A stretch of DNA of 39,291 nt from Bacteroidota bacterium (GTDB taxonomy: Bacteria > Bacteroidota > Bacteroidia > Chitinophagales > Chitinophagaceae), in assembly GCA_018267545.1 (NCBI GenBank), contig JAFDYG010000134.1:1-39291 (forward strand), in the 5' to 3' direction. Of this stretch, positions 898-20,498 are shown piece after piece. Below the pieces are notes generated by a model. It did no database searches. It was not told the DNA's origin and was given only the letters and a program-made list of their open reading frames with translations. Made by a program: the position numbers and the translations under genes. Positions within the stretch are counted from its first letter, which is position 1; every line of letters begins with the position of its first letter.

Positions 898-3516
898 ATG
901 TTTAGGTGGTTCTACTATATTGTTTTTTTGTTGGTGGTTTTTGGGCGGGTTTCTGCTCAGGAGGTGGGAGGATTGTCTTGTGAGCAATTGACTGACCCGA
1001 TGGGCATCGATGCGGTGAGGCCCAGACTGGGGTGGGAGCTTAGCGGTGGCGTGATGCGACAGGCGGCGTGGCAGGTGCTGGTCGCTTCTTCCGAGGCGGT
1101 GCTGGCGGCGGACAGGGGGGACCTATGGAATTCGGGGAAAGTGGAAGGTGATCAGAGCTGGATGGTAGTCTATAAAGGAGTGCCTTTGAAGAGCCGGATG
1201 GTTTGTTATTGGAAGGTGAAGGTGTGGACGGATAAGGGAGAGGGGGTATGGAGTAAGCCTGCCAGGTGGAGTATGGGGTTGCTTTTGCCGACGGATTGGA
1301 AGGCGCGGTGGATTGGTTATGAGCAGGGATTTCCCTGGGATAGCGTATCGAAGTTCTCGAGATTATCCGCGAGGTATTTTAAAAAGAGCTTTGCCGTGGG
1401 CGGGGGTGTGAAGCGGGCTACCTTATACATTGCGGGTTTGGGACATTATGAATTGTCTTTTAATGGAGCGGCGGTTAGCGACCAGGTATTGGCGCAGGCG
1501 CCGACAGATTATACGAAGTCGGTTTTGTATCAGACGTTCGATGTGACGTCGATGTGTAAGAAGGGGGAGAATCTGGTGGATGTAGTGCTTGGGAATGGGC
1601 GGTTCTTTACGATGAGGCCGAAGTACAAGCCGCTGAAGATAAAGGAATTTGGATTTCCGAAGCTGTTGTTTCAATTAGAATTGGAAGATGCTGCGGGGAA
1701 GCGGATGATTGTGAGTGATACGAGCTGGCAATTTACCGGGGATGGCCCGATACGGACGAATAACGAATATGATGGGGAAGAGTATGATGGGACGAGGGGT
1801 TTAAATGGATGGATGAAGCCGCAGCTGGTGGCTGGGCCTGGCGGGAAGTTGGTCGCGCAGATGAATCCGCCGATCAAGGTGATGAAGACGATTAAGCCTG
1901 TGTCCTTGGTCGAGGGGCCGGGAGGGGTTATGATCCTGGACATGGGGCAGAATATGGCGGGTTGGTTGCAGATGAAGGTGAGGGGCAAAAAAGGTGAACA
2001 GGTTAGGTTACGATATGCGGAGACGTTGCAGAAGGATGGCAGCTTGTATACGGCGAATTTGAGGGATGCGAAGGTGACGGATTTGTATACGCTTAGCGGG
2101 AACGGGGAAGAGGTCTGGCATCCGGTCTTTGTCTTTCATGGGTTCAGGTATGTAGAGATCTCGGGCTATCCGGGGAAGCCAACGCTGAGTGATTTCGAGG
2201 GGCAGGTGGTATATGATGACCTTGCGAATGTGGGGGAGTTTCATTGTTCGGATACCTTGTTGAACCAGCTTTTTACGAATGCGTGGTGGGGGATCAATGC
2301 GAATTACAAGGGAATGCCGATCGACTGTCCGCAGCGGAATGAGCGGATGCCCTGGCTGGGGGATCGGGCGACGAGCTCGCTGGGGGAAAGCTATCTTTTC
2401 AATAATGGATTACTTTATGCCAAGTGGCTGGATGATATCGAGCAGTCACAGAAGCCGGATGGGCAGCTGCCGGATGTGGCGCCGGCCTATTGGAATTATT
2501 ATAGCGACAATATGACGTGGCCGGGGGTGTATATCCAGGTGGCGGAAATGTTGTATGATCAATACGGGGACCGGAGGCCGATCGAGAAGCACTATGCTTC
2601 TATGAAGAAGTGGCTGTGGTACATGAAAGGGAAATATTTGAAGGATGGGATCATGACGAAGGACAAGTATGGGGACTGGTGCGTGCCGCCGGAATCGCCG
2701 AAGTTGATCCATTCGAAGGATTCTATGCGAAATACGGATGGACAATTGATTGCTACGGCGTATTATTTTCATTTTCTCCGGGTGATGAAGGATTTTGCGG
2801 GGATGCTGCATTTGCCCCAGGATATGGTGGAGTACGAGCGCGAGTCGATCAAGGTCTGGCAGGCGTTCAACGCGCGTTTTTTGAAAGGCGATCATTATTC
2901 CAATAATACGGTGACGGCAAATTTATTGCCTTTGTATTTCGGGCTGGTTCAGGAGGAAATCAAGAATAAGGTGATCGATGCGATCGATGAGAAGATCAGG
3001 GTAGACAATGGCGGGCACATCAGCACCGGGGTTATCGGGACGCAGTGGCTGATGCGTGGGTTGGTGAAATATGGGATGGGTGATCTTGCTTATAAGATTG
3101 CTTCCAATAAGGACTATCCGAGCTGGGGGTATATGGTGGAGCATGGGGCGACGACGATCTGGGAACTGTGGAATGGAGATTCTGCGGACCCGGCGATGAA
3201 TTCGCAGAATCACGTGATGTTGCTAGGCGATCTGCTGGCTTGGTTTTTTCAGGATTTGGTGGGGATAGCGCCGGGGGAGCCTGGGTTTAGGAGGATAAAG
3301 ATGAGACCGGCTTTTTCTTGTGGGCTGAGCAGTGCGGGTGGGTCTTACCGGACGCCGTATGGAGTGGTGAAGAGTGAGTGGGTGAGGAAGGGCGACAGGG
3401 TTGTTTGGGATATTGTAGTGCCGGCGAATTCGAAGGCGGAAGTTTTTCTGCCCGATGGGAGTGTTCGGCAGATAGGTACAGGAAATTATCATTTTGAAGT
3501 AAAAATGACGATATGA
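898..3516 (+). CDS. Secreted alpha-L-rhamnosidase, GH78
   Basis: Predicted to hydrolyse terminal alpha-L-rhamnose from glycans or glycosides outside the cytoplasm. The ATG at 898 is chosen because it gives a clean signal peptide (residues 1-20, ending VSA-Q); an in-frame TTG at 877 would overlap the preceding gene and add a useless N-terminus. Beta-sandwich domains occupy about residues 25-440. The (alpha/alpha)6 catalytic barrel follows, with the GH78 signature DCPQRNER..WLGD at 476-489, where E482 is the expected general acid, and TIWELWNGDS around 756, where E756 is the likely base. A C-terminal beta domain ends the 872-residue protein, a normal GH78 length. It starts one base after the GH2 stop, and its own stop overlaps the next start in an ATGA. 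Family assignment is very secure; linkage specificity is not visible. Confidence 0.95.
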   Translation: MFRWFYYIVFLLVVFGRVSAQEVGGLSCEQLTDPMGIDAVRPRLGWELSGGVMRQAAWQVLVASSEAVLAADRGDLWNSGKVEGDQSWMVVYKGVPLKSRMVCYWKVKVWTDKGEGVWSKPARWSMGLLLPTDWKARWIGYEQGFPWDSVSKFSRLSARYFKKSFAVGGGVKRATLYIAGLGHYELSFNGAAVSDQVLAQAPTDYTKSVLYQTFDVTSMCKKGENLVDVVLGNGRFFTMRPKYKPLKIKEFGFPKLLFQLELEDAAGKRMIVSDTSWQFTGDGPIRTNNEYDGEEYDGTRGLNGWMKPQLVAGPGGKLVAQMNPPIKVMKTIKPVSLVEGPGGVMILDMGQNMAGWLQMKVRGKKGEQVRLRYAETLQKDGSLYTANLRDAKVTDLYTLSGNGEEVWHPVFVFHGFRYVEISGYPGKPTLSDFEGQVVYDDLANVGEFHCSDTLLNQLFTNAWWGINANYKGMPIDCPQRNERMPWLGDRATSSLGESYLFNNGLLYAKWLDDIEQSQKPDGQLPDVAPAYWNYYSDNMTWPGVYIQVAEMLYDQYGDRRPIEKHYASMKKWLWYMKGKYLKDGIMTKDKYGDWCVPPESPKLIHSKDSMRNTDGQLIATAYYFHFLRVMKDFAGMLHLPQDMVEYERESIKVWQAFNARFLKGDHYSNNTVTANLLPLYFGLVQEEIKNKVIDAIDEKIRVDNGGHISTGVIGTQWLMRGLVKYGMGDLAYKIASNKDYPSWGYMVEHGATTIWELWNGDSADPAMNSQNHVMLLGDLLAWFFQDLVGIAPGEPGFRRIKMRPAFSCGLSSAGGSYRTPYGVVKSEWVRKGDRVVWDIVVPANSKAEVFLPDGSVRQIGTGNYHFEVKMTI

Positions 3517-5213
3517 GAGCGATACTTTTTTTATTGTTTTTGGGCGGGGTTTTTACGGCGGCGGCGCAGGATAGTTCTATGGATAAGCGTGCTACGGAAT
3601 GGGTGTCGGCTTTGAAGCTGAATGATGCGGATAAGGAGACTCGGTTGGTTGCGGTGGTGTCGACGCATTTGAAGACGATCAAGGATTGGAATAATGAGCA
3701 TCCGTATACGACGGTTCCGGCGGGTATCGACCCGTCGACGGGGAAGGCTTTGTCGGAGATGGACCGGCAGATTATTGCCAATTCGGCGATGCCGAAGTCG
3801 GTTCATGCGGATTTGATGAATGGGTTGAGGAAGGAGCTTGCGGATTCGCAGGTGAATTTTATTCTTGATCAGTATACGATTGGAAAGGTGGCGTTTACGC
3901 TGAATGGGTATAAGGCGATAGTGCCTGATCTGACGGCGAAGGAGGAAGCGGAGATTTTGAAGAATTTGCAGCAGGCGAGGGAGCAGGCGGTGGATTTTAA
4001 GAATATGAAGCAGGTGTCGGCGATTTTTGAAATATATAAGACGAAGTGTGAGCAATATTTGAACTCGAACGGGAGGAATTGGCATGCTTTATTTAAAGCT
4101 TATGTGGATGGGGTGAAGGCGAAGAAGGCGGCGGCGCAGGTGAGTCCTGTGAAGGTTGCTGAGTTTTTGTATGATACAGCTTCGTTTCCGGAGTGTCATG
4201 CGGCTACGATCGTGGAGACGCCGAAGGGGTTAGTCGCGGCTTATTTTGGCGGGACGAGGGAGCGGCATCCGGATGTTTGTATTTGGGTGAGCAGGAAGGA
4301 TGCCGGGTCGAAGAATTGGACAGCGCCGTTGAATGTGGCCAATGGGATACAGAATGATACGCTTCGGTATGCTTGCTGGAATCCGGTTTTGTACCAGGTT
4401 CCGGCGGGGGATCTGCTGTTGTTTTATAAGGTAGGGCCGAGTCCGTCGACGTGGAAGGGCTTTTTGCTTCGGTCCAGGGATGGGGGTATCACATGGTCGA
4501 AGCCGACGGCATTGCCGGAGGGTTTTTTGGGACCGATCAAGAATAAGCCGGTGGCTTTGAAGGACGGCAGCTTACTGTGTCCAACGAGTGTAGAGGGAAA
4601 TGGCTGGAAGATACATTTCGAGCTGATGACGAATGGGGGTAAGAATTGGAAGATGGCGGGGCCGGTGCCTGTGCCGCCTGCTGCGGCTACGGGTGCAAGT
4701 CCTAATGATGAGGACAAGGTACCGGCGGCGTATCAGGCGATACAGCCGACGATACTCCTATATAAGAATGGGGCGATACAGGCTTTGAGCCGGAGCAAGA
4801 ACAGGGTTATCCTTTCAACCGAATCGAAAGACGGGGGTAAGACCTGGTCGACGCTGGAGCCGACGGGGCTGCCGAATAACAATTCGGGACTTGATGGAGT
4901 GACACTGGCGGATGGAAGGCAGCTCCTGGTTTATAATCATGTCCTGCCGCCGGCGGGTGAGTCAAAGGGGGAGCGTTCGCCCCTGAATGTGTCGTTGTCG
5001 CCGGATGGGAAGACCTGGTATGCGGCGCTGGTACTGGAAGATGACCATACGGGGCAGTATTCTTATCCTTCGGTGATCCAGTCGAGCGATGGGATGGTGC
5101 ATATTGTTTATACATGGCATAGGAAGAAAATAAAATACGTTGAAATCGATCCGTCCAAACTGGAAATGAAAAAGATTGAAAACGGTAGCTGGCCAGATAG
5201 TGTCAAAAAATAA
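3513..5213 (+). CDS. DUF3826 domain fused to sialidase-like BNR-repeat domain, secreted
   Basis: A two-domain exported protein of 566 residues with a signal peptide ending TAAAQ at residue 19. Residues 24-205 match the DUF3826 family, which I know as a stand-alone secreted protein in Bacteroidota pectin loci (KATEWV-like start, LKTIKDWNNEHP at 53-64). Residues 212-560 look like a six-bladed beta-propeller of the sialidase superfamily, with Asp-box motifs SRDGGITW (321-328), SKDGGKTW (438-445) and a degenerate SPDGKTW (496-502). Similar propellers act on sialic acid or on the plant keto-acid sugars Kdo and Dha; the full arginine triad could not be assigned by eye, so enzymatic activity is unproven. 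The start codon overlaps the GH78 stop (ATGA), implying translational coupling. Domain calls are good; function is open. Confidence 0.8.
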   Translation: MRAILFLLFLGGVFTAAAQDSSMDKRATEWVSALKLNDADKETRLVAVVSTHLKTIKDWNNEHPYTTVPAGIDPSTGKALSEMDRQIIANSAMPKSVHADLMNGLRKELADSQVNFILDQYTIGKVAFTLNGYKAIVPDLTAKEEAEILKNLQQAREQAVDFKNMKQVSAIFEIYKTKCEQYLNSNGRNWHALFKAYVDGVKAKKAAAQVSPVKVAEFLYDTASFPECHAATIVETPKGLVAAYFGGTRERHPDVCIWVSRKDAGSKNWTAPLNVANGIQNDTLRYACWNPVLYQVPAGDLLLFYKVGPSPSTWKGFLLRSRDGGITWSKPTALPEGFLGPIKNKPVALKDGSLLCPTSVEGNGWKIHFELMTNGGKNWKMAGPVPVPPAAATGASPNDEDKVPAAYQAIQPTILLYKNGAIQALSRSKNRVILSTESKDGGKTWSTLEPTGLPNNNSGLDGVTLADGRQLLVYNHVLPPAGESKGERSPLNVSLSPDGKTWYAALVLEDDHTGQYSYPSVIQSSDGMVHIVYTWHRKKIKYVEIDPSKLEMKKIENGSWPDSVKK

Positions 5214-5227: not shown

Positions 5228-6202
5228 ATGGAAAAGAAGTTTGTCCCGGTGATGATCACCCCCTTCAATTTGAAGGCGAAGGTAGATCTGGATGTCGTCT
5301 CGACGCTGGTGGAGTTCTACCTGGCGGCAGGCGTAAAAGGATTTTTCGCTAACTGTCTCAGCAGTGAGATGTACAGTATCAGCGAAGACGAGCGGCTGGA
5401 GCTGACACGGCACGTCGTCCGGGCAGTAGATGGGCGGGTGCCGATCGTTGCGACGGGTTCGTTCGGTCTGACGATCGAGGACAAGGCCGAGTTTGCCGGT
5501 CGCATTTACGATACAGGGATCGATGCGGTGATTCTGATCACGGGGCATTATGCGAATGTGGAAGACAGCGAGGACGTCCTGATGCGGAATTTCGACAAGA
5601 TGTTCCGGCTGACGAAAAATATTCCGATGGGGCTGTACGAGTGTCCGGCTCCGTATAAACGTATTATCAGCCCGGAGATTTTTAAGAAGCTGCTCGATAC
5701 GGGGCGGTTGGTGTATCATAAGGACACGTCGATCGAGCTGGAGAAAGTAAAGGCGAAACTGGATGTGTTGAGTCAGGGTTCGTATGGGCTGGAGTTTTAT
5801 GATGCGCATACCCCGAACGCCATGTATTCCTTGCAGATGGGGGCGAGGGGGATGTCTTCGATCTCGGGGAACTTCTACCCGGAGATATTAGTCTGGATGG
5901 TGGAAAATGCCAACAACCCTGATAAACAGGAAGACGTGCGTTGGCTGCAAGGAGAGCTGAGCCGGGTGGACCCACTGATACACGTGGCTTATCCGATGAG
6001 CGCCAAGTACTTCTTACAGAAGCGGGGATTACCGGTTCGGACGATCAGCCGGGCGCATGCGTTGGAGCTGACGTTACAGCAGAAGCAGACATTGGATGAT
6101 ATCCATTATAGTTTTTTGGGCTGGTGTGAGCGGCTGGGTATTCAGCCGGTGCAGACGGGTAAATTGATAAAGGCCAAGATGCCGCTTGATCCTCCTATTT
6201 AA
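5228..6202 (+). CDS. DapA/N-acetylneuraminate lyase family aldolase, copy 1
   Basis: A 324-residue class I aldolase-type TIM barrel of the dihydrodipicolinate synthase superfamily, cytoplasmic (no signal peptide). Members cleave or form bonds to pyruvate through a Schiff base. The catalytic pair is visible: Y137 in GLYECP and the Schiff-base lysine K165 in VYHKDTS. The usual GTTGE loop is replaced by NCLSSEMY (42-49), so it is not a housekeeping DapA and should bind a different substrate carboxylate environment. Setting it among glycosidases, an alcohol dehydrogenase and a second homologue points to cleavage of a 2-keto-3-deoxy sugar acid into pyruvate plus an aldehyde, which is inference. 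The start follows a strong ribosome binding site. Superfamily certain, substrate unknown. Confidence 0.88.
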   Translation: MEKKFVPVMITPFNLKAKVDLDVVSTLVEFYLAAGVKGFFANCLSSEMYSISEDERLELTRHVVRAVDGRVPIVATGSFGLTIEDKAEFAGRIYDTGIDAVILITGHYANVEDSEDVLMRNFDKMFRLTKNIPMGLYECPAPYKRIISPEIFKKLLDTGRLVYHKDTSIELEKVKAKLDVLSQGSYGLEFYDAHTPNAMYSLQMGARGMSSISGNFYPEILVWMVENANNPDKQEDVRWLQGELSRVDPLIHVAYPMSAKYFLQKRGLPVRTISRAHALELTLQQKQTLDDIHYSFLGWCERLGIQPVQTGKLIKAKMPLDPPI

Positions 6203-10229: not shown

Positions 10230-13200
10230 ATGGAGCAGAAATTACATCTTCCGGACATTCTTATCATCGTTGTCTTTTTGGCGGCGACCTTGTTTCTGGG
10301 TTTGCGATTTGCCAAGCGGAAGCAGTCTACACAGTCTTATTTTCTGGCGAAGGGGAAGATACCTGCCTGGGCGATCGGGATGTCGCTGCTGTCGAGCATG
10401 ATCAGCAGCGTGACGTTCCTGGCATATCCAGGGGAGGGGTATTCTTCGAATTGGATATTGCTTGTGCAGGGGTTGATGGTTCCGGTGGTCTTGTTAGGGC
10501 TTATCTGGTTCGTGGTGCCGCTGTATCGCAAAGTGATTGGTTTGAGCACGTATGAATATTTTGAAAGAAGGTTCGGGACTTTTGCGCGTTACTATAGCTC
10601 GCTAGCCTTTGTGCTGCGGCAGTTCTCGGCGATGGGGACGATATTCTATTTGCTGGCGTTGGCGCTTAGCAAGATGACTGGTTTGGATACGACGCTGATG
10701 ATCGTGGCTATTGGGCTGGTGATTATTTTCATCAATCTATTGGGCGGGATCGAGGCGGTGATCTGGCTGGACGTTTTCCAGGGGTTTTTGCTTTTTGCCT
10801 CCGGGATCATCTGTCTGTCGATACTGATTTACTCCGCGGCGAGCAGTCCGGGGGAGGCGTGGCGGATTGCGCAGGAGAATCACCGGACGGGTTTTGGTCC
10901 GTATGAATGGAATTTTACGAAGCTGACATTTGTCGTCATGGCGATCAATGGCGTTTTTTATGCGATTCAAAAATATGGGACGGACCAGACGGTGGTGCAA
11001 CGTTATCTGACGGCAAAGACGGATAAGGCTGCGGTGCGGGCTTCGCTGATGGGAGTCTTGTTAACGGTGCCGGTTTGGTGTTTGTTTATGTTCATCGGTA
11101 CGGGATTATTCGTGTATTATCAGACGCATTCGCTGCCGGCTGGGATGAAGGCGGAAGCTGTGTTCCCTTATTTTATCATGACGCGTCTGCCGACAGGGTT
11201 GGTGGGTTTTATCCTTTCGGCGATGACTTCGGCGGCGATCTGTGCGATGAGCGCGGATTTGAATTCGTTGGGAGCGGTAGGGGTGGAAGACTATTATAAG
11301 AAGTTTCGACGCGGGAGGAATGATAAGGAGTATTTGACGGCGGGGAAGGTGATTGTGATTGTATCGGGTATTATTTCTATTTTGATTGCGATGTTATATG
11401 CCAATGCGGGCAGTGATGGTGTGCTGGGAATTGTGTTTACGCTGTATGCGATCTTTTCGGGTGGTATTTCTGGGATATTCTTATTGGGATTGTTTAGTGC
11501 GCGGACGAACCGGCAGGGGATGAATATTGCGATCGTGGCTTGTATACTGTTTACGAGCTATGCGTTTTTGACTTCTACAAAGATTGGGCTTGGGGCTGAC
11601 AAGCGAGTATTGCTGGACCTTGGCAGATGGAATTTTACGCAGCATAAATTGATGCTGGGTGTTTATAGTCATTTGGTGGTGATTGTGGTAGGGTATCTGG
11701 CGAGCTTATTTTTTCCTAAGCCTTCGGTGGAGTCGGGTTTGTTATTTAGTGGTTGGAGGCGGGCCCGATTGACGGTGGTGGCGGTTTTGCTGGTGATGGT
11801 GGTTCGTGCACAGAATAATTCGGATGGGCAGTATCGGAAACCGTTACGGGAGGTGCTGGCGGAGATACAGCAGCGGTATGGGGTGGTGGTGAAATATTCG
11901 GAGGATTTGGTGAAGGACCGTTATGTCAACTATGCGGAGTGGCGGTTTAGGGGGAATGTCGATACGACGTTAAAGAATGTGCTGTCGCCCTTGGACCTGG
12001 ATGTCAATAAGACGGGGGACAAGGCGTACAAGCTGAAGAACTATGAATATTGGAGGAGGAGCTATGAAGAGGGGAAGGCAACGCTGGACCATCTGGCGTC
12101 GCTGTATCATAACCGGTCGGAGTGGGAGGAGCGGAAGGCGATGCTGAGGCCTTGTTTGTATGAGGCGTTGGGGATGTCTCCTTTGCCAGCTGCTCCGGGT
12201 TCGGCGCCGATTACTACGCCCTGGAGGAAGATGGATGGGTACGAGGTGTCGAATGTGGCTATCGAGATACTACCGGGTTTGTACGTGAATGGGTCGTTGT
12301 ACAGGCCTTTGAAGATAAAGGGGAAGATTCCGGTGATCTTGAATCCGGATGGGCATTGGGAGCGGCACCGGTACAGGGCGGATTGTCAGATCCGGTGTGC
12401 GACGCTGGCGCGGATGGGGGCGATGGCGTTTAGCTATGACCTGTTCGCCTGGGGGGAGTCGCTTTTGCAGTTCAAGTTCGAGGATCACCGGAAGAGTCTG
12501 GCGATGCCGATTCAGCTTCTTGGCGGGGTAAGGATATTGGACTATTTGTTGTCGCTGCCGGCGGCGGATTCTTCTCGTGTGGGTATCACGGGTGGTTCTG
12601 GCGGTGGGACGCAGACGGTGTTGATGACGGCGCTGGACGAGCGGATCAAGGTGAGCGTACCGGTCGTTTCCATGTCATCCTATTTCTATGGAGGATGTCC
12701 TTGCGAGAGCGGGATGCCGATCCATGCCTGCGGGGGTGGGACGGATAATGTGGAGCTGGCGGCAATGGCTGCTCCGCGGCCGCAATTGGTGATCTCGGAT
12801 GGACATGATTGGACGGATCATACGCCGGAGCATGATTTTCCGTATTTGCAGCATATGTATGAGTATTATGGGGTGAAGGGGAATGTGGAGAATGTGCATT
12901 TGCCTGCTGACGTGCATGATTATGGAGTGACGAAGCGGGTGCCGATGTATAAGTTCATGGCTCGTTGGCTTGGGTTGAACCTGGCGGCGGCGGATGAAGC
13001 GAAGGTGAAGGTGGAGCCGGATTCGGCGTTGTTTGTGTTTGGAGGACATGGCGAGAGATTACCGGCGAATGCGATTATGGGATTTGCGAATTTGGAGAGG
13101 GTTTGGGCGGCCACGCCAGGGGGGAAGATGGCTGCGGATGGTGGGGGACGGTATAAGGTGGCGGTGGTCGATCTGATGTTGTTGAAGCGGCAGAAGCTGG

Positions 13201-13937
13201 GGGCTTTTCCGTTGGCGAAGACGGTGGGAGCGGATGGACTGGAGGTGGATATGGGTGGATTGGGTGATAGGGAGACTTTCGATAATACATTGCTGGTGGA
13301 TTCGGTGAGGGAGCGGTTTATGGACAGTTCCCGGAAGCTGGGGGTGGAAGTGGCTTCACTGGCGATGACGGGTTTTTATGCGCAGAATTTTGCGACGCGG
13401 CCGACGTGGCAGCGGATGATCGGGGATTGTATCGCTACGATGAAGAAGATGAATGTTCGGGTGGCGTTTCTGCCGCTGGGGGTCGGGGCTGATCCGGGGA
13501 AGCATCCGGAGTTGCGTGGTGCGGTGGTGGAGCGGCTGAAGGTGGCTGGGAAGATGGCGGCGGATGCGGGAGTGGTGATCGGGATCGAGACGAGCTTGCC
13601 GGCGGTGGAGGAGGTTCGGCTTTTGGATGAGATTGGTTCGCCGGGGGTGAAGAGCTATTTCAATTTTGCGAATGCGTTGGATGCTAAGCGGGACTTGTAT
13701 AAGGAGCTGGAGGTTTTGGGGGCTGGCCGCATCTGTCAGATACACTGTACGAATACGGATGGGGTTTGGCTACAGAATGATACGGCGATCGATATGAGGA
13801 AGGTGAAGGAGACGTTGGACAGGATGGGATGGCATGGGTGGTTGGTGGTGGAGAGGAGCAGGGATGCGAAGGATCCGAGGAATGTTAAGTTCAATTTTAC
13901 GGCAAATACACGATATGTTAAATCAATATTTCAGTAG
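10230..13937 (+). CDS. Triple fusion: SSS sodium:solute symporter + STN-like domain and alpha/beta-hydrolase (esterase) + xylose-isomerase-like TIM barrel
   Basis: One uninterrupted 1235-residue frame. Residues 1-495 form a sodium:solute symporter with about 13 membrane helices. Residues 509-528 (positive WRRAR, hydrophobic core, then VRAQ) look like a complete signal peptide buried in the chain and should carry what follows to the periplasm. Residues 535-605 resemble an STN-type module. Residues 610-915 are an alpha/beta-hydrolase of the acetylxylan-esterase/dienelactone-hydrolase type, with nucleophile S790 in GGSGGG, a likely acid in SDGHDWTDHTPE and H896 in VHDYG. Residues 970-1235 are an AP-endonuclease-2/xylose-isomerase-like barrel with probable metal ligands E1120, H1172 and E1208. 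Normally these are separate genes. A GTG at V500 could also start a separately secreted enzyme. The domain calls are strong; the topology is inferred. Confidence 0.88.
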   Translation: MEQKLHLPDILIIVVFLAATLFLGLRFAKRKQSTQSYFLAKGKIPAWAIGMSLLSSMISSVTFLAYPGEGYSSNWILLVQGLMVPVVLLGLIWFVVPLYRKVIGLSTYEYFERRFGTFARYYSSLAFVLRQFSAMGTIFYLLALALSKMTGLDTTLMIVAIGLVIIFINLLGGIEAVIWLDVFQGFLLFASGIICLSILIYSAASSPGEAWRIAQENHRTGFGPYEWNFTKLTFVVMAINGVFYAIQKYGTDQTVVQRYLTAKTDKAAVRASLMGVLLTVPVWCLFMFIGTGLFVYYQTHSLPAGMKAEAVFPYFIMTRLPTGLVGFILSAMTSAAICAMSADLNSLGAVGVEDYYKKFRRGRNDKEYLTAGKVIVIVSGIISILIAMLYANAGSDGVLGIVFTLYAIFSGGISGIFLLGLFSARTNRQGMNIAIVACILFTSYAFLTSTKIGLGADKRVLLDLGRWNFTQHKLMLGVYSHLVVIVVGYLASLFFPKPSVESGLLFSGWRRARLTVVAVLLVMVVRAQNNSDGQYRKPLREVLAEIQQRYGVVVKYSEDLVKDRYVNYAEWRFRGNVDTTLKNVLSPLDLDVNKTGDKAYKLKNYEYWRRSYEEGKATLDHLASLYHNRSEWEERKAMLRPCLYEALGMSPLPAAPGSAPITTPWRKMDGYEVSNVAIEILPGLYVNGSLYRPLKIKGKIPVILNPDGHWERHRYRADCQIRCATLARMGAMAFSYDLFAWGESLLQFKFEDHRKSLAMPIQLLGGVRILDYLLSLPAADSSRVGITGGSGGGTQTVLMTALDERIKVSVPVVSMSSYFYGGCPCESGMPIHACGGGTDNVELAAMAAPRPQLVISDGHDWTDHTPEHDFPYLQHMYEYYGVKGNVENVHLPADVHDYGVTKRVPMYKFMARWLGLNLAAADEAKVKVEPDSALFVFGGHGERLPANAIMGFANLERVWAATPGGKMAADGGGRYKVAVVDLMLLKRQKLGAFPLAKTVGADGLEVDMGGLGDRETFDNTLLVDSVRERFMDSSRKLGVEVASLAMTGFYAQNFATRPTWQRMIGDCIATMKKMNVRVAFLPLGVGADPGKHPELRGAVVERLKVAGKMAADAGVVIGIETSLPAVEEVRLLDEIGSPGVKSYFNFANALDAKRDLYKELEVLGAGRICQIHCTNTDGVWLQNDTAIDMRKVKETLDRMGWHGWLVVERSRDAKDPRNVKFNFTANTRYVKSIFQ
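11754..11813 (+). other. Embedded signal-peptide-like segment joining symporter and esterase
   Basis: Encodes residues 509-528 of the fusion protein: a basic stretch (WRRAR), about 12 hydrophobic residues (LTVVAVLLVMVV), then RAQ with an N-rich start of the mature domain. This is the layout of a Bacteroidota signal peptide with cleavage before Q. In place it would serve as an extra inward-to-outward transmembrane helix, and possibly as a signal peptidase site. Confidence 0.6.
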
Positions 13938-13944
13938 GGGGTAT

Positions 13945-15795
13945 ATGTGGTTTTTGAAAAAATCGAATTTGTATATACAAATTGGGTTGTGGTCTTTTTT
14001 GAGGTGGGGGGTAGTGTCGTGCATGCTGCTGTCCGGACGGGCGGTGATGGCGCAGAGTGGGATAGGGGTTGCTTCGATTTGGGTGGCTCCGGGCGGGAGT
14101 GATGGGGCGGAGGGGACTGCGGCTTCGCCGTTGGGGAGTATTGGGGCTGCGGTGCGGAAGGCGAGGGAATTACAGCGGCTGCATCTGGCCAGTGGGGTAC
14201 ATATTTGGGTAAGGGGAGGAGAGTATGTGTTGACGGAGACGGTTTTTATCCGGCCGGAGGATTCGGGGATTGTGATCGAGGCTGCGCCGGGGGAATTGCC
14301 GGTGCTGAGTGGTGGTGAGGATGTGCGGGGATGGCGCAGGGTGAAGGGGGCGGCGTACTGGGAGGCTGATTTGCCGGCGGGTTCAGGATTCCGGCAGCTT
14401 TGGGTGGATGGTAAGAAGGCGGTGAGGGCGAGGGATGTCAATAGAGACGATGACATGCAAAGGATAATTTCTGTGGATAAGAAGGAGCGGGTTATGTGGA
14501 TTCCGGCGAGCGGGATTGTGCCGAAGGCGGTGGGGCAGATGGAGCTGGTTATTCATCAGATGTGGGCGATTGCGGTGCTGAGGGTGAAGACGATGGAGCG
14601 GGTGGGGGACCGATTGAAATTGTCCTTTCGGGAACCGGAAGGGCATATCGAATTCGAGCATCCCTGGCCGGCGGCGGTTATCGATAGCGGGCATAAGCAA
14701 AATGGGAATTCCGCCTATTACCTGGCCAATGCGTTGGAATTTTTAGACGAGCCAGGGGAATGGTATGCGGATTTTCAGAAGGGGAAGGTGTATTACTGGC
14801 CTCGTGCGGGGGAAGACCTGAATAAGGTGAGGGTAGTTGCGCCGGTGCTGACGAAGCTGGTGGAGGTGCAGGGAACGCCGGACCGGCCGGTGAGTCATGT
14901 GGAGTGGCGGGGGATTGGGTTTTCGTATTCGGGGTGGATGCGTCCTTCGGAGCAGGGGCATGTGCCTTTGCAGGCGGGGATGTATTTGCTGGACGCTTAT
15001 AAGTTGAAGATACCGGGGACTCCGGATAAGAAGGGGCTGGAGAATCAGGCGTGGATAGGCCGGCCACCGGGTGCGGTGGAGGTTAGCTATGCGAACGATA
15101 TAAGATTTGTCGGGTGCAGGTTCGAGCACCTGGCGTCTACGGGGCTGGACTTTATACGTGGGACGAGTGGAGATAGTGTTAGTCGTTGTTCTTTTCAAGA
15201 TATCGGCGGGACGGGTCTACAGATAGGGGTTTATTCGGACCCGGCATTCGAGACGCATCTGCCGTATAATCCTTCGGATGGACGGGAGGTTTGTCATGAT
15301 GAATTTGTTTTGAATAATACGGTTCGGGATGTTACCAATGAAGATTGGGGTTGTGTGGGAATCAGCGCGGGGTATGTGCATGACGTTACTATCGAGCATA
15401 ATGAAGTCAGCGAGGTGGCTTATTCGGGAATCTGTGTGGGCTGGGGATGGACGAGGACGGTCAATTGTATGAAGAACAATAAAATCCTCGGCAACTATGT
15501 GCATCACTATGCCAAGCATATGTTCGATGTGGGGGGGATTTATACATTGTCGGCGCAGCCGGGGACGCTGATTGCGGAAAACCGGATCGATTCGATCTAT
15601 CACCCGGTGTATGCGCATGACCCGAAGCATTGGTTCTACTTCTATTTCGACGAGGGTTCTTCCTATATCACTATCCGGGACAACTGGTGTCCGGAGGAGA
15701 AGTTTATGCATAATGCCAATGGACCGGGGAATACCTGGGAGAACAATGGACCGATGGTATCCGATAAAATTAAACAAAAAGCAGGAGTACATTAA
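13945..15795 (+). CDS. Secreted right-handed parallel beta-helix protein, GH141-like
   Basis: A 616-residue exported protein. The ATG at 13945 is preferred because it lies just after the preceding stop, has a G-rich stretch before it, and yields a signal peptide ending in AVMA-Q at residue 36; upstream in-frame ATGs would overlap the previous gene. The mature start IWVAPGGSDG, followed by SPLGSIGAAVRKAREL and a VRGGEYVLTETV strand, is typical of pectin-lyase-fold proteins. The C-terminal half has successive beta-helix rungs with N-rich turns. Overall it resembles GH141, a family with alpha-L-fucosidase and xylanase members acting on pectin and xylan. A polysaccharide lyase or an uncharacterised beta-helix hydrolase is the alternative; no catalytic residues could be fixed by eye. 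Confidence 0.72.
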   Translation: MWFLKKSNLYIQIGLWSFLRWGVVSCMLLSGRAVMAQSGIGVASIWVAPGGSDGAEGTAASPLGSIGAAVRKARELQRLHLASGVHIWVRGGEYVLTETVFIRPEDSGIVIEAAPGELPVLSGGEDVRGWRRVKGAAYWEADLPAGSGFRQLWVDGKKAVRARDVNRDDDMQRIISVDKKERVMWIPASGIVPKAVGQMELVIHQMWAIAVLRVKTMERVGDRLKLSFREPEGHIEFEHPWPAAVIDSGHKQNGNSAYYLANALEFLDEPGEWYADFQKGKVYYWPRAGEDLNKVRVVAPVLTKLVEVQGTPDRPVSHVEWRGIGFSYSGWMRPSEQGHVPLQAGMYLLDAYKLKIPGTPDKKGLENQAWIGRPPGAVEVSYANDIRFVGCRFEHLASTGLDFIRGTSGDSVSRCSFQDIGGTGLQIGVYSDPAFETHLPYNPSDGREVCHDEFVLNNTVRDVTNEDWGCVGISAGYVHDVTIEHNEVSEVAYSGICVGWGWTRTVNCMKNNKILGNYVHHYAKHMFDVGGIYTLSAQPGTLIAENRIDSIYHPVYAHDPKHWFYFYFDEGSSYITIRDNWCPEEKFMHNANGPGNTWENNGPMVSDKIKQKAGVH

Positions 15796-15796
15796 T

Positions 15797-16858
15797 ATGT
15801 TAAAAATTGGAATACTGGGACTGGGTGAAGGGCGGAGCACGATGTCGGCTGCGCTGAACAGTCCGAAATATACATTGGTAAAAATTTGTGATCTGAATGA
15901 AGAGCTTTGCAAGCATCGGGCGGAGGAATTCAACTTTCCGCATTATACGTTGAAGTTCGAGGACTTGTTGAATGATCCGTCGATCGATGTCATCGGTATC
16001 TATACGCCGGACAAGTGGCATGCGACGCACGTGAAGATGGCGTTGTCGCATGGGAAACATGTGGTTTGTACGAAGCCGTTTATCGATGATTTGGCTGAAG
16101 CCAAAGAGATTTTGAGATTGAGCGAGACTACGGGGCGTAAGGTTTTCGTGGGACAGAGCTCGCGGTTTTTCGAGCCGATGAAGCGGCAGCGGAAGGATTT
16201 CGAGGAGGGTTTGATCGGGGAGCTGATTACGATCGAGGCGTATTATCATGCGGACCACCGTTGGTTCCTGGGAAAAGGTTGGTCGCTGGAGAATGCGTTC
16301 AAGTGGCTGTATGGCGGGCTGAGCCACCCGGTGGACTTTGTCCGCTGGTATCTACCTGATATTTCAGAGGTCATGGGGTATGGGATGTTGAGCTCGAATG
16401 GCCGTAAGGGAGGGTTGCATCATGAAGATACCATGCACTTTATCTTCAAGGCTTCGGATGGGCGTGTGGCCCGGGTCAGCGGGGCGTATACGGGGCCGGT
16501 GCAGCCGGTGGTCCGGGACAGCGAGATGAGCTGTATCCTGCGGGGAACGGAGGGGTGCAGCCAGGGGGATTATATGGACCTGCGTTATGCGGTGACGACG
16601 AAGACGGGGGAAGAGCAGGTTGTTACCTGGGAACATAAGCTAAAGCATTATTTCCGGTTCGAGGGGAAGAGTCATCATGCGGGGGAATATCAGAACTACC
16701 TGGAATACTTTCATGATTGTCTGGAGTCGGGTGTGACGGCGTACCCGGATGCGAAGGAGGGGATTGGGACGATCTGTTTATTAAAGGCGATGGAAGAATC
16801 GCTGGCGACGGGTATGCCGGTTCGGGTTGACAGTATTAAAGCGAAGTATGATCTATAA
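15797..16858 (+). CDS. Gfo/Idh/MocA family NAD(P)-dependent oxidoreductase
   Basis: A 353-residue sugar dehydrogenase-type protein without signal peptide. The start at 15797 begins the Rossmann strand directly (MLKIGILGLGEG), one base after the preceding stop, with AGGAG ten bases upstream; a longer upstream frame only translates the end of the beta-helix gene in another frame. The family lysine appears as K93 in CTKPF (the usual EKP is TKP), and GGLSHPVD (173-180) supplies the catalytic H177 and D180 region. Members oxidise or epimerise sugars at ring carbons, or act in 3-keto-sugar routes. In this operon it could oxidise the imported sugar ahead of the lyases. Its last 11 bases overlap the next gene, suggesting translational coupling to the symporter fusion. 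Confidence 0.9.
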   Translation: MLKIGILGLGEGRSTMSAALNSPKYTLVKICDLNEELCKHRAEEFNFPHYTLKFEDLLNDPSIDVIGIYTPDKWHATHVKMALSHGKHVVCTKPFIDDLAEAKEILRLSETTGRKVFVGQSSRFFEPMKRQRKDFEEGLIGELITIEAYYHADHRWFLGKGWSLENAFKWLYGGLSHPVDFVRWYLPDISEVMGYGMLSSNGRKGGLHHEDTMHFIFKASDGRVARVSGAYTGPVQPVVRDSEMSCILRGTEGCSQGDYMDLRYAVTTKTGEEQVVTWEHKLKHYFRFEGKSHHAGEYQNYLEYFHDCLESGVTAYPDAKEGIGTICLLKAMEESLATGMPVRVDSIKAKYDL

Positions 16859-19800
16859 TTTTTTGAAGCCGGTCGACTTTATCATCGTCGTGGTCTATCT
16901 GCTGGCGTTGCTGGCGATTGGGTACTGGGTGAGCTTTGTCCGCAAGAAGAAGGAAGGGGAGAATTTGTTTTTGGCGGAGCGGAGTCTGGGATGGGGTAGT
17001 ATTGGGTTGAATATGTGGGGGACCAATGTGGGGCCGTCGATGTTGATTGCTTCGGCGAGTATTGGATATACGACGGGGATTGTAGCGGGGAATTTCGCGT
17101 GGTACGCTTTTGTGTTCATTCTTTTGCTGGCGGTGGTTTTTGCGCCGCGTTATCTGGGGGCCAGGGTATCGACGCTGCCGGAATATATGGGGAAACGGTT
17201 TGGGGAATCGACGCGGAGCATTCTGGCGTGGTATACGCTGATTACGATATTGATTTCCTGGCTGTCGCTGGGGCTGTTCGCGGGTGGGGTGTTGGTGAGG
17301 CAGTTATTGGGGATGCCGATGTGGTTGTCGGTTATCAGCATGGTGGTGCTGGCTACGTTTTTTACGGCGGCGGGGGGATTGAAGGCGATTGCCTATACGA
17401 ATGTATTTCAGATGTTGCTTTTGATTGCGGTTTCGGTGGTGTTGGTGTGGATTGGGGTTTCTAAGATTGGAGGGGTGAAGGCATTGGTCGATCGGACGCC
17501 GGCTGGTTATTGGAATTTATTTTTGCCTTCGAATGATAAGGGATATCCCTGGCAGGCGATCCTATTGGGTTATCCGGTGATGGGGGTTTGGTTTTGGTGT
17601 ACGGAGCAGTCGATGGTGCAGTCGGTATTGGGGGCTAAGAGTCTGGAGCAGGGACAGCTGGGGGCGAACTTTATCGGTTGGTTAAAGATATTGGATGTGC
17701 CCTTGTTTATCATTCCGGGGGTGCTTTGTTATATTCTTTATCCGCATCTTTCGAATCCTGACGAGGCGTATTTGACGCTGGTGACGAGGCTTTTTCCGCC
17801 GGGGATGCGGGGGCTGATCATCGTGGTATTGATTGCGGCGCTGGTGGGGAATATCGGGTCTTCTCTTAATTCAGTCAGTACGGTGTTTACGATGGATATC
17901 TATATCAAAAAATATAAGCCGGGGGCGAGCAATTCTGATATTATCCGGATTGGGCGCTGGGTGACGGTGCTGGGGGCGTTGGTTTCGATTTTGATGGCGC
18001 TGGCGATCGACAATATCAAGGGCTTGAATCTGTTCGATGTGTTTCAGTCGGTATTGGGATTTTTGGCGCCGCCGATGTCGGTTGCGTTTTTGCTGGGGGT
18101 GCTGTGGAAGGGGACCAGCTCGAAGGCGATCAATGGGGTGCTGACCTGGGGGACGGCGTTTAGTGTGGGGGTGGGGGTTTTGTATCTCTGGGTGTTTCCG
18201 TCTTCTCGTTATCCCTGGCCGCATTTTTTGTTGTTGTCGTTTTATTTGTTTGTCATTATTGCTCTAGGGGGGATTATGGCGTCGTTACGAGGGGTAGCTG
18301 CGGCGGTGACGGATGTGGGGGCTGGTTCGGGGGCTACGCCGAGGGTTCGATGGTTGTGGGTATTGTTGACGGCGGTGATGATTGTGCTGTATATCTTATT
18401 TAACGGGCATTCGGCTTCGGCGCAGAGTTATGTGGCATATCCGGGGGATTATGAGGTGTGGCTGGCGAACAAGGTTCAGAACCGTCGAATGGAGAGGGGA
18501 ACATTTTTTCCGCCGTTTTGGAGAATGGATAATCACTATGTGCTGGTTGATTTTAGGAAGGAGGTTGTATTGCCGGGGGATGATGAGGTGGAGATAGTGG
18601 CGGAGGGGAAATATAATTGTAAGGTGGATGGGAAGATGGTATCTGGGATGCCTGGGCGTTTGCATTTGTCGAGGGGGCCACATGTTTTGGAATTGAAAGT
18701 TTATAATCAAGTTTCGCCGCCGGCGTTGTCGGTGAGGGGGCGTTATTTGACGAGTGAGGGTTGGTCGGTGACATTCGAGGATAAGGAATGGATTGATGCG
18801 TCGGGGAAGGCTTCGGATAAGTCGGGGACGCAGTGGCTGCCGGCGGAGGTATTGAATTTGGGGTGTGCGCCTTCTGAGTGGAAATTGGCTGTCGAGCCTC
18901 GTTCGGCTGTACGGATGGAGAAGGGGGCGCATTCTTTGTTGGTGGATTTTGGGAAGGAGTCGTTTGGGTATGTTCGATTGCATGGACTAAAGGGGAAAGG
19001 GAAGCTTGCGCTTTATTATGGAGAGTCGAAGGAGGAGGCGTTGTCGGTGGATAGCTGTGAAGTGTTGGATAGAATGGATGGGGTGTATTCCGGTGATACT
19101 GTGTTGTCGGGATCGCGGGCTTTCCGGTATGTGAATATTCAGTGGGAGGGTGGTGTTCAGGTGGATTCGGCTTCGCTGCTATTCGAATATTTGCCGATTG
19201 CGAATAAGGGGAGCTTTCGGTGTTCGGACGCTTCGATCAATAAGATCTGGGATGTAGCTGCGTATACCTTTCATTTGAATACGAGGGAATTCTTTATCGA
19301 TGGGATCAAGCGGGACAGGTGGGTTTGGTCGGGGGATGCGTATCAGAGCTATTTGATGAACTATTATTTGTTTTTTGATTCGGCTTCGGTGACGCGGACA
19401 CTTTGGGCGTTGAGGGGGAAGGACCCGGTGACGAGCCATATCAATACGATAATGGATTATAGCTTTTATTGGTTTTTGGGGATTTACGATTACTACCGGT
19501 ATACGGGTGATTCGGCTTTTTTGAAGGTTTGTTATCCGAGGATGGTGAGCTTGATGCAGTGGGTGCAGTCGAGGAGCAATGGGGCAGGGTGGCTGGAGGG
19601 GAAGGCTGGAGACTGGCTTTTTATCGATTGGGCGGATGGACTGACGAAGAAGGGAGAATTGAGCTTTGAACAATTATTGTATGTGCGGAGCCTGGAGACG
19701 ATGGCGTTGTGTGCGGGGATTGCGGGGGATGTGGCTGCCTCGGCAAAGTATGGAGGGGAGGCTTCGGTGTTGAGGAAGCGGTTATTTACCGATTTTTGGG

Positions 19801-20498
19801 ATGCGGGGCGACAGGCTTTTGTACATTCGAGGAATGGAGGAGAGGACAGGGTGACGAGGTATACGAATATGTTTGCGATCTTTTTCGATTATCTGGATGC
19901 GGGGCAGAGGGAAGGAGTTCGGCGGCGGGTGTTGTTGAATGACAGCATTCAGAAGATTACGACGCCTTATATGCGGTTTTATGAATTGGAGGCTTTGTGT
20001 GTGCTGGGGGATCAGGGTCGGGTTTTGAAGGAGATGAAGGATTATTGGGGTGGTATGTTGAATCTGGGGGCGACGTCTTTTTGGGAGAAGTATGATCCGG
20101 GTGAAGTGGGCGTTCAGCAGTATGCGATGTATGGACGGCCTTTTGGGAAGAGTCTTTGTCATGCGTGGGGGGCGAGTCCGATTTATTTGCTGGGTAAATA
20201 TTATTTAGGAGTACGGCCGTTGGAGGCGGGTTTTAGGAAATATGAAGTGCAGCCTGTGCTGGGGGGAATGGAATGGATGGAGGGGGATGTGCCGACGCCG
20301 CATGGGAATGTGAAGGTGTATTGTAGTCGTTCGAAAATTCGGGTGGCTGCTGTGGAGGGAGATGGAATGTTGAGGTTTAAGAGTAAGAAGATGCCGGTTT
20401 GTAAGGAGGGTGCGGTGGTTTCGGAAGGTGGGGGTGTATACTCTGTGCGGCTGGTTGGGGGGAAGGAGTATAATGTGAATTATGTTGCTTCGGAATAA
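16848..20498 (+). CDS. Fusion: SSS sodium:solute symporter + GH78-like alpha-L-rhamnosidase
   Basis: A single 1216-residue frame. The ATG at 16848 overlaps the preceding stop by 11 bases and starts right before the first membrane helix. Residues 1-480 are a sodium:solute symporter with early VGPSMLIASASIGY and about 13 helices. A last hydrophobic segment at 502-519 preceded by arginines ends NGHSASAQ and reads as a signal peptide. Residues 526-1216 are a GH78-type enzyme: beta-sandwich domains, then DGIKRDRWVWSGD (818-830) and TSFWEKYDP (around E1080). Compared with the DCPQRNER motif of classical GH78, the general-acid glutamate position holds D823, so this is a divergent subgroup and may not be a rhamnosidase. 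The predicted topology puts the enzyme on the periplasmic face of the inner membrane. The next gene overlaps by 17 bases. Confidence 0.88.
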   Translation: MIYNFLKPVDFIIVVVYLLALLAIGYWVSFVRKKKEGENLFLAERSLGWGSIGLNMWGTNVGPSMLIASASIGYTTGIVAGNFAWYAFVFILLLAVVFAPRYLGARVSTLPEYMGKRFGESTRSILAWYTLITILISWLSLGLFAGGVLVRQLLGMPMWLSVISMVVLATFFTAAGGLKAIAYTNVFQMLLLIAVSVVLVWIGVSKIGGVKALVDRTPAGYWNLFLPSNDKGYPWQAILLGYPVMGVWFWCTEQSMVQSVLGAKSLEQGQLGANFIGWLKILDVPLFIIPGVLCYILYPHLSNPDEAYLTLVTRLFPPGMRGLIIVVLIAALVGNIGSSLNSVSTVFTMDIYIKKYKPGASNSDIIRIGRWVTVLGALVSILMALAIDNIKGLNLFDVFQSVLGFLAPPMSVAFLLGVLWKGTSSKAINGVLTWGTAFSVGVGVLYLWVFPSSRYPWPHFLLLSFYLFVIIALGGIMASLRGVAAAVTDVGAGSGATPRVRWLWVLLTAVMIVLYILFNGHSASAQSYVAYPGDYEVWLANKVQNRRMERGTFFPPFWRMDNHYVLVDFRKEVVLPGDDEVEIVAEGKYNCKVDGKMVSGMPGRLHLSRGPHVLELKVYNQVSPPALSVRGRYLTSEGWSVTFEDKEWIDASGKASDKSGTQWLPAEVLNLGCAPSEWKLAVEPRSAVRMEKGAHSLLVDFGKESFGYVRLHGLKGKGKLALYYGESKEEALSVDSCEVLDRMDGVYSGDTVLSGSRAFRYVNIQWEGGVQVDSASLLFEYLPIANKGSFRCSDASINKIWDVAAYTFHLNTREFFIDGIKRDRWVWSGDAYQSYLMNYYLFFDSASVTRTLWALRGKDPVTSHINTIMDYSFYWFLGIYDYYRYTGDSAFLKVCYPRMVSLMQWVQSRSNGAGWLEGKAGDWLFIDWADGLTKKGELSFEQLLYVRSLETMALCAGIAGDVAASAKYGGEASVLRKRLFTDFWDAGRQAFVHSRNGGEDRVTRYTNMFAIFFDYLDAGQREGVRRRVLLNDSIQKITTPYMRFYELEALCVLGDQGRVLKEMKDYWGGMLNLGATSFWEKYDPGEVGVQQYAMYGRPFGKSLCHAWGASPIYLLGKYYLGVRPLEAGFRKYEVQPVLGGMEWMEGDVPTPHGNVKVYCSRSKIRVAAVEGDGMLRFKSKKMPVCKEGAVVSEGGGVYSVRLVGGKEYNVNYVASE
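18342..18425 (+). other. Embedded signal-peptide-like segment joining symporter and GH78-like domain
   Basis: Encodes residues 499-526 of the fusion: RVR, a long hydrophobic core (WLWVLLTAVMIVLYILF), then NGHSASA-Q. This fits a signal peptide with an AXA-Q cleavage site, and as a fused helix it would export the C-terminal enzyme. It parallels the segment at 11754-11813 in the other symporter fusion but is not similar to it in sequence. Confidence 0.6.

Follow-up and report, generated by a model that had tools for sequence, protein, structure and literature searches.

Two in-frame symporter-enzyme fusions in a Chitinophagaceae operon as probable polyproteins with signal-peptide-like junctions

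Two fused genes in one operon

The subject of this analysis is a 39,291-nucleotide stretch of DNA from a soil bacterium of the Chitinophagaceae (Bacteroidota; GenBank assembly GCA_018267545.1, contig JAFDYG010000134.1, positions 1 to 39,291 of the forward strand), hereafter the window, and in particular two open reading frames (ORFs) of one operon in which a transporter of the SSS family is followed, in the same frame, by an enzyme of secreted type. The frame of ORF1 is open and continuous over 10230-13937 and comprises an SSS transporter, a BT1017-type pectin methylesterase and a TIM barrel, and that of ORF2 (about 16848-20498), likewise open and continuous, comprises an SSS transporter and a GH78-like rhamnosidase. 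The parts of the two genes are as follows.

10230..11729, + strand: ORF1 part 1, SiaT-like SSS symporter (residues 1-500; PF00474), by homology of the type with 13 transmembrane (TM) helices and a cytoplasmic C-terminus
11739..11810, + strand: ORF1 junction, tail LLFSGWRRAR (as n-region), 11-residue hydrophobic core and VRA, with a predicted cut at A527/Q528
11811..13109, + strand: ORF1 part 2, BT1017-type methylesterase with an N-terminal small domain, triad S790/D860/H896 (6goc)
13110..13934, + strand: ORF1 part 3, xylose-isomerase-like TIM barrel (PF01261, residues 995-1213)
16848..18410, + strand: ORF2 part 1, SGLT-type SSS symporter including its native last TM helix, ending ..LYILFNGH (PF00474)
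18411..18425, + strand: ORF2 junction, c-region SASA/Q, with the Q at 18423-18425
18423..20495, + strand: ORF2 part 2, GH78-like alpha-L-rhamnosidase (PF21209 and PF17389; 3cih)

That both transporters run in frame into secreted-type enzymes was the starting claim of the initial annotation, and it is borne out by the continuous frames, by the Pfam domains and by orthologues of the same genus; its further claim of two separate fusion events is supported by the difference between the enzymes (esterase plus TIM barrel vs. GH78-like). The full SSF domain (PF00474) scores above its curated cut-off of 22.8 in both genes, with 125.6 bits in ORF1 (residues 37-430) and 171.1 bits in ORF2 (residues 42-425). 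The remaining Pfam matches are weak esterase matches at residues 767-815 and AP_endonuc_2 at 995-1213 in ORF1, and Bac_rhamnosid-like_N at 568-765 and Bac_rhamnosid6H at 788-1118 in ORF2.

The best solved relatives of the ORF1 transporter are SiaT (5nv9) and SMVT. SiaT is described as a 13-helix protein whose C-terminus lies in the cytoplasm (PMC5931594), and since the ORF1 transporter is closest to SiaT, one further membrane crossing would be needed behind it. The initial annotation had envisaged a 13-helix core plus one extra helix for both genes; the periplasmic topology so reached is supported by homology, and in ORF2 the helix in question is the transporter's own. The esterase region of ORF1 matches 6goc with an E value of 1.8e-105 when searched alone and of 3.4e-124 over residues 532-972 of the full ORF1. 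Its triad S790/D860/H896 aligns to the BT1017 catalytic triad S282/D352/H388 (PMC7939467), the GxSxGG motif is present, and ORF1 residue 532, four residues past the predicted +1 position, aligns to BT1017 residue 23 (with the BT1017 numbering offset set from the catalytic Ser). Unlike ORF1, BT1017 carries a signal peptide of its own and, at its C-terminus, DUF3826, which in the window belongs to another gene. In an AlphaFold2 model of ORF1 residues 1-960 (mean predicted local distance difference test, pLDDT, of 81.4; predicted template modelling score, pTM, of 0.54), the last core helix of the transporter spans 473-492 and pLDDT falls below 50 at 509-534, so that in the model the junction is a free segment linking two mostly confident domains.

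The relatives of the ORF2 transporter are vSGLT and SGLT1, and the alignment to vSGLT (2xq2) extends as far as residue 518, which falls within the junction helix. The solved SiaT and vSGLT chains resemble the ORF1 and ORF2 transporters, respectively, but, judged by name and length, are transporters alone, with no exported enzyme at the C-terminus. The rhamnosidase is related over its full length to the solved structure 3cih (E 1.7e-255), which we take to be BT1001, of the same rhamnogalacturonan-II (RG-II) pathway as BT1017. For the start of ORF2, alignment to the orthologue in genome G031 makes the ATG at 16848 more likely than the TTG at 16827.

Fused and separate genes in related genomes

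We searched for orthologues in 58 genomes, of which 33 belong to the same genus (the window's own included); genomes, contigs and loci are designated by G, C and L numbers. Orthologues of ORF1 lie in one frame with the transporter in G031 (1215 amino acids, aa), G004 (1156 aa) and G021 (902 aa, to the contig end). ORF2 has full-length orthologues in G031 (1217 aa) and G012 (1278 aa), and in G004 and G021 the transporter side reads past the alanine-glutamine boundary at the junction (A/Q) up to the contig end. Identity to the window fusions in these same-genus assemblies is 74-86% over the aligned stretches. A scan of named genomes with ORF1 as query returned 78 loci, of which 9 have a fused frame of transporter (the ORF1-type transporter, SSS1) and esterase and 9 others hold the two as separate frames. 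The fused loci are the contigs of G004, G021 and G031 together with six cultured species: Spirosoma profusum, S. arboris, S. validum, S. endophyticum, Fibrella forsythiae and Arsenicibacter rosenii. The fused frames of this Spirosoma type measure 989-1001 aa and leave the TIM barrel outside, adjoining in 5 of the 6 loci.

An assembly or sequencing artefact that joined two genes has on its side that the closest named relatives are draft metagenome assemblies and that the ORF2-type fusion is, among the genomes scanned, confined to the window's group of related genomes. This explanation is scarcely credible, as the same in-frame fusion is repeated in separate assemblies of the genus at 14-26% amino-acid divergence, which speaks against sequencing error in either gene, and ORF1-like fusions occur in the six cultured species. 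The initial annotation had named as refuting a stop or frameshift at either junction, or homologues with the domains always separate; what we found instead is that fused frames recur in same-genus assemblies and in cultured species alike.

A tree of 81 SSS1 rows, 10 of them fused, needs 4 changes of label between fused and unfused, at least 3 of which are forced by well-supported branches, and a single clade of fused rows is rejected (p-AU 3e-50). Judged from this tree, the ORF1-type fusion has a second origin in the Spirosoma/Fibrella/Arsenicibacter group. Four unfused rows from Larkinella (L185, L187, L188 and L233) are nested among the fused Spirosoma sequences; their SSS1 has a longer C-terminal tail with no esterase found within the locus, and Larkinella has possibly lost the fusion. 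Among 395 genomes of the phylum, scanned with ORF1 as query at an E cut-off of 1e-80 and with two candidate places scored in each, only the window's own showed a fused frame, and the ORF1-type fused state looks rare across the phylum. Two candidates were set aside: a 1154-aa esterase frame in G360 contains no SSS, and an SSS1 matched across a stop in G081 turned out to be an ordinary standalone gene.

The order of the operon is largely conserved in 20 fetched relatives, in which the counterparts of the fused parts are separate genes. In all 7 relatives that have both, SSS1 and esterase are separate (adjacent in 6); the ORF2-type transporter (SSS2) and the rhamnosidase likewise form separate genes in each of the 19 relatives with both, 16 pairs being at most about 21 bases apart and three about 1.4 kb apart. 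In 396 genomes of the order the ORF2 enzyme has 28 close homologues at 56-61% identity, all in other genera of the family and all in frames of 711-810 aa. Separate adjacent genes are thus supported, by this comparison, as the ancestral state of both fusions.

The relatives also indicate where each fusion took place. The SSS2 proteins of the 19 relatives end in ..FNGH (12), ..FNGF (4) or near variants (3), with ..FNGH in 4 of 4 Niastella/Longitalea loci, and as ORF2 reads ..LYILFNGH-SASAQ, the fusion lies at the old stop, with the enzyme's start, n-region and core lost and the AxA/Q kept. Because vSGLT aligns through residue 518 and the separate-gene relatives end in ..FNGH-stop or variants of it, the ORF2 junction helix is, by alignment, the native last TM helix of the transporter, to which only the c-region was added. 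In the separate-gene relatives SSS1 ends in a cytoplasmic tail such as ..NLLYSSWKANRHK, and the ORF1 junction ..LLFSGWRRAR-LTVVAVLLVMV-VRA-Q accordingly draws its charges from this tail and its core and cut site from the old signal peptide. The mature enzyme start of ORF1, AQNNSDGQYRKPL, resembles that of the free enzyme in G252, AQQNSDEAYRRPL.

Anatomy of the junctions

By sequence criteria, both ORFs have a signal-peptide-like junction segment with a signal peptidase I motif. The order of basic residues, hydrophobic stretch and AXA-Q-like site that the initial annotation had seen in both genes is indeed present, although the builds differ: ORF1 has a short signal-peptide core after a 13-TM transporter and ORF2 has a native last helix followed by AxA/Q, so the claim of one common layout was dropped. 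We also surveyed 23 junctions of a transporter to an enzyme or to an unassigned domain of exported type: 5 of ORF1 type, 6 of Spirosoma type, 5 of ORF2 type, 3 of Kelch-SSS-sialidase fusions, one each in contig C450 of the window's own genome and in G009, and two of SSS-rhaM fusions (G007 and G014). With the cut sites placed by eye, A/Q is present in 21 of the 23, the two without it being the SSS-rhaM fusions, in which the last helix runs directly into the mutarotase domain and the partner has no visible signal peptide. As background, 109 standalone SSS sequences contain 2099 hydrophobic segments, of which 16 have the motif [AVSTGLIC]xAQ close to their end; the occurrence of A/Q at the junctions exceeds chance. 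Two controls lack a hydrophobic segment, namely the boundary between esterase and TIM barrel inside ORF1 (from the alignment of orthologues) and a sialidase-esterase fusion without transporter in G014.

The hydrophobic segments themselves were compared by 19-residue insertion sums. The eleven ORF1- and Spirosoma-type junctions give sums of +2.7 to +11.4 and have an uncharged core of 11-14 residues in 9 of 11 cases (the 9 where the measure applies). The sums are -1.6 to +0.3 for the ORF2 type, -2.2 for G009, -0.9 for C450 and 0.0 to +2.7 for the Kelch type; the signal peptides of free enzymes (14 sequences chosen by eye) give +1.1 to +7.2. At the ORF2 junction the Ala at -3 (codons gct, gcg, gcg, gcg and gcc), the Ala at -1 (gcg, gct, gca, gcc and gcg) and the Gln at +1 are all invariant in five of five genomes, with silent codon change at both alanines, whereas position -2 varies (S, K, S, S and H).

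A different origin of the enzyme, from an internal start near the junction that would make the fusion only apparent, seems very improbable to us. The window's ORF1 does have in-frame TTG codons ahead of the core, and starting at one of them would yield a plausible signal peptide; in 4 of the 6 Spirosoma-type junctions some in-frame GTG, TTG or ATG also occurs in or before the core. In G004 and G021, however, the stretch from the LLFSGW tail to the core contains no ATG, GTG or TTG, and no start codon precedes the cut site in the stretch inspected for Spirosoma profusum and S. validum. The in-frame ATG of ORF2 (5 of 5) falls within the helix, and a start there would lack a basic n-region.

Release or tethering of the enzyme

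We consider it probable that ORF1 and ORF2 encode polyproteins that are cut by signal peptidase I, freeing a periplasmic enzyme. Each ORF would have arisen by loss of the stop codon that separated a transporter gene from the exported-enzyme gene behind it, as the comparison with relatives supports. Homology and topology suggest that a single chain would then be translated, the SSS domain being inserted co-translationally into the inner membrane and the junction segment guiding the enzyme into the periplasm, where signal peptidase I would cut the AxA-type sites, at A527/Q528 in ORF1 and after SASA, before the Q at 18423, in ORF2. The products would be a transporter and a mature periplasmic enzyme, two proteins at 1:1, the latter with essentially the N-terminus that it has when encoded alone. 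In ORF1 the basic tail of the transporter, as n-region, would precede the retained h- and c-regions of the former signal peptide; in ORF2 only the c-region would be retained, following the transporter's own last helix.

The initial annotation had left cleavage and tethering side by side; cleavage is favoured at ORF1 and ORF2, and it is the SSS-rhaM fusions of the same genus that look tethered. A tethered bifunctional protein, in which the junction serves as a signal anchor that is not cut and the enzyme sits at the mouth of the transporter and passes its product on, would allow substrate channelling. It finds support in the TM-like character of the ORF2 junction helix, a native last helix of the transporter, and in the SSS-rhaM fusions of G007 (695 aa) and G014 (686 aa) without a cut site. 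We nevertheless regard it as unlikely. The ORF1-type cores are short and weakly hydrophobic, and A/Q is kept in 5 of 5 orthologues of each ORF; in ORF2, whose helix already ends outside, tethering alone would not need an AxA/Q site, and the site is selectively conserved though no crossing needs it, whereas the two SSS-rhaM fusions, placed directly behind a helix of this kind, do without it. The G012 orthologue of ORF1, in which the transporter is cut to about two helices while junction and enzyme are retained, is suggestive: if the deletion is natural, its sparing of the enzyme would argue for release, though an assembly collapse is possible. The frame in question (L070 8352-10805, G012:C186) consists of the 17 residues that open the DHDPS gene (window 5228), part of SSS1, the junction and the enzyme.

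Several points weigh against release and should be kept in view. Cleavage is predicted from motif, core length and conservation, with the sites placed by eye, and the five rows for each ORF are drawn from one set of five related genomes, so that they do not amount to ten independent tests. The ORF2 core is TM-like, with 21 uncharged residues in a row (NGH and the residue after it counted in), and may be cut poorly by signal peptidase, with partial or no cleavage; the structure model of ORF2 (pLDDT 45) is unusable. The two SSS-rhaM fusions without A/Q mean that a cut site is not automatic and that tethering can occur in principle. Tethering is thus possible, above all for ORF2.

A polyprotein of this general kind is FbcH of Bradyrhizobium, in which cytochrome b and cytochrome c1 are made as one chain that is cut at an internal signal peptide. 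As in FbcH, an exported protein is fused in frame behind a polytopic inner-membrane protein, the junction contains an internal signal, and relatives have the two as separate genes. Unlike FbcH, the present genes join a transporter to secreted carbohydrate enzymes of several unrelated families, ORF2 would use the upstream protein's own last helix as signal core, and cleavage is here a prediction from sequence. In listings of the open-licence PMC literature we found no description of an SSS-enzyme polyprotein or of its junction. Associations of the BT1017 esterase module with solute symporters and TIM barrels are noted in PMC7939467 (2021), whose remarks on them do not discuss junction or processing. 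If ORF1 and ORF2 are cut as predicted, bacterial operons can collapse a transporter and an exported enzyme into one translated unit with neither protein lost, because signal peptidase I separates them. Signals put together from a transporter's helix or tail would also indicate that a small remnant of a signal peptide is enough after a gene fusion, and automatic annotation could read such genes as one bifunctional protein.

Other SSS fusions

In five genomes of the genus, 10 of 45 SSS transporters have C-terminal enzyme or unassigned domains (3 of 7 in the window's genome G000, 3 of 9 in G031, 1 of 10 in G002, 2 of 11 in G007 and 1 of 8 in G009), one of the ten being SSS-rhaM; frames of 599-648 aa were left outside this inspection. 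The partners are the BT1017-type esterase, the GH78-like enzyme, a sialidase (PF13088), a GH110-related part (G009), the unassigned domain of C450 and rhaM. Outside the genus, 112 SSS matches in 14 genomes of the family include no frame above 632 aa, and for MFS transporters in the five genus genomes none above 578 aa among the matches listed, which is only suggestive. It seems reasonably likely that this lineage repeatedly turns SSS-enzyme neighbours into single-gene polyproteins with signal peptidase I as the processing protease, and that fusions to exported partners rebuild a signal from what the end of the transporter lacks, with importer and enzyme fixed at 1:1.

The third SSS fusion of the window's genome (L076 2705-6652, G000:C450) has 1315 aa and the junction ..VKGAA/Q; its C-terminal part has no Pfam match at 1e-3 and no PDB match at 0.1. 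In G009 (L080, G009:C3:74000-87000) a 2170-aa frame consists of SSS, an unassigned region and the GH110-related part, and in G029 (L083 5145-10245) the counterparts of the transporter and of the first enzyme are encoded separately, side by side, and the enzyme carries a signal peptide of its own. Kelch(NanM)-SSS frames of 870 aa (G023 and G034) join a sugar enzyme and an SSS in one frame, as ORF1 and ORF2 do, but with the enzyme N-terminal and behind an ordinary signal peptide. In G031 (L077 1981-5604, G031:C865), G002 (C13) and G007 (C44) a sialidase is added behind, and the single frames of about 1210 aa read enzyme-transporter-enzyme: signal peptide, NanM-like Kelch, SSS, signal-peptide-like junction and BNR sialidase. 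With this type as query, a scan of 298 genomes of the order (E cut-off 1e-100, two places scored in each) found matches in 19, with no transporter-plus-sialidase frame among those listed. The SSS-rhaM frames (L275 1615-3699, G007:C42; L274 1331-3388, G014:C25) carry a C-terminal L-rhamnose mutarotase (PF05336) and no AxA/Q. Like ORF1 and ORF2 they combine a sugar enzyme and an SSS in one frame, but with the domain placed after the last helix and no cut site, and by their sequence they are probably truly tethered transporter-enzyme proteins.

Operon context and further observations

The neighbourhood in the window includes genes for GH78, DUF3826 plus BNR_2, DHDPS (a DHDPS-family protein, window 5228-6199), an Fe-alcohol dehydrogenase, DapA-like, PdxA-like and D-threonate-kinase-like proteins, GH141, Gfo/Idh and GH106. 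BT1017 is described as an RG-II pectin methylesterase with a role in RG-II degradation by Bacteroides (PMC7939467). The neighbouring genes fit pectin or RG-II degradation, as do the BT1017-type esterase and the GH78-like rhamnosidase, and judged from these families the operon probably serves the degradation of methyl-esterified pectin, probably RG-II, and the uptake of the products.

The DUF3826 of the window precedes the BNR_2 domain in a separate gene (3513-5213); in Bacteroides BT1017 it trails the esterase. Fusions of neighbours also occur without a transporter in the genus: a sialidase-like BNR_2 is joined to a BT1017-type esterase with no hydrophobic junction (L074 8696-11188, G014:C1), and a GH78 rhamnosidase and a BNR_2 sialidase-like part share one 1194-aa frame (L070 4755-8339).

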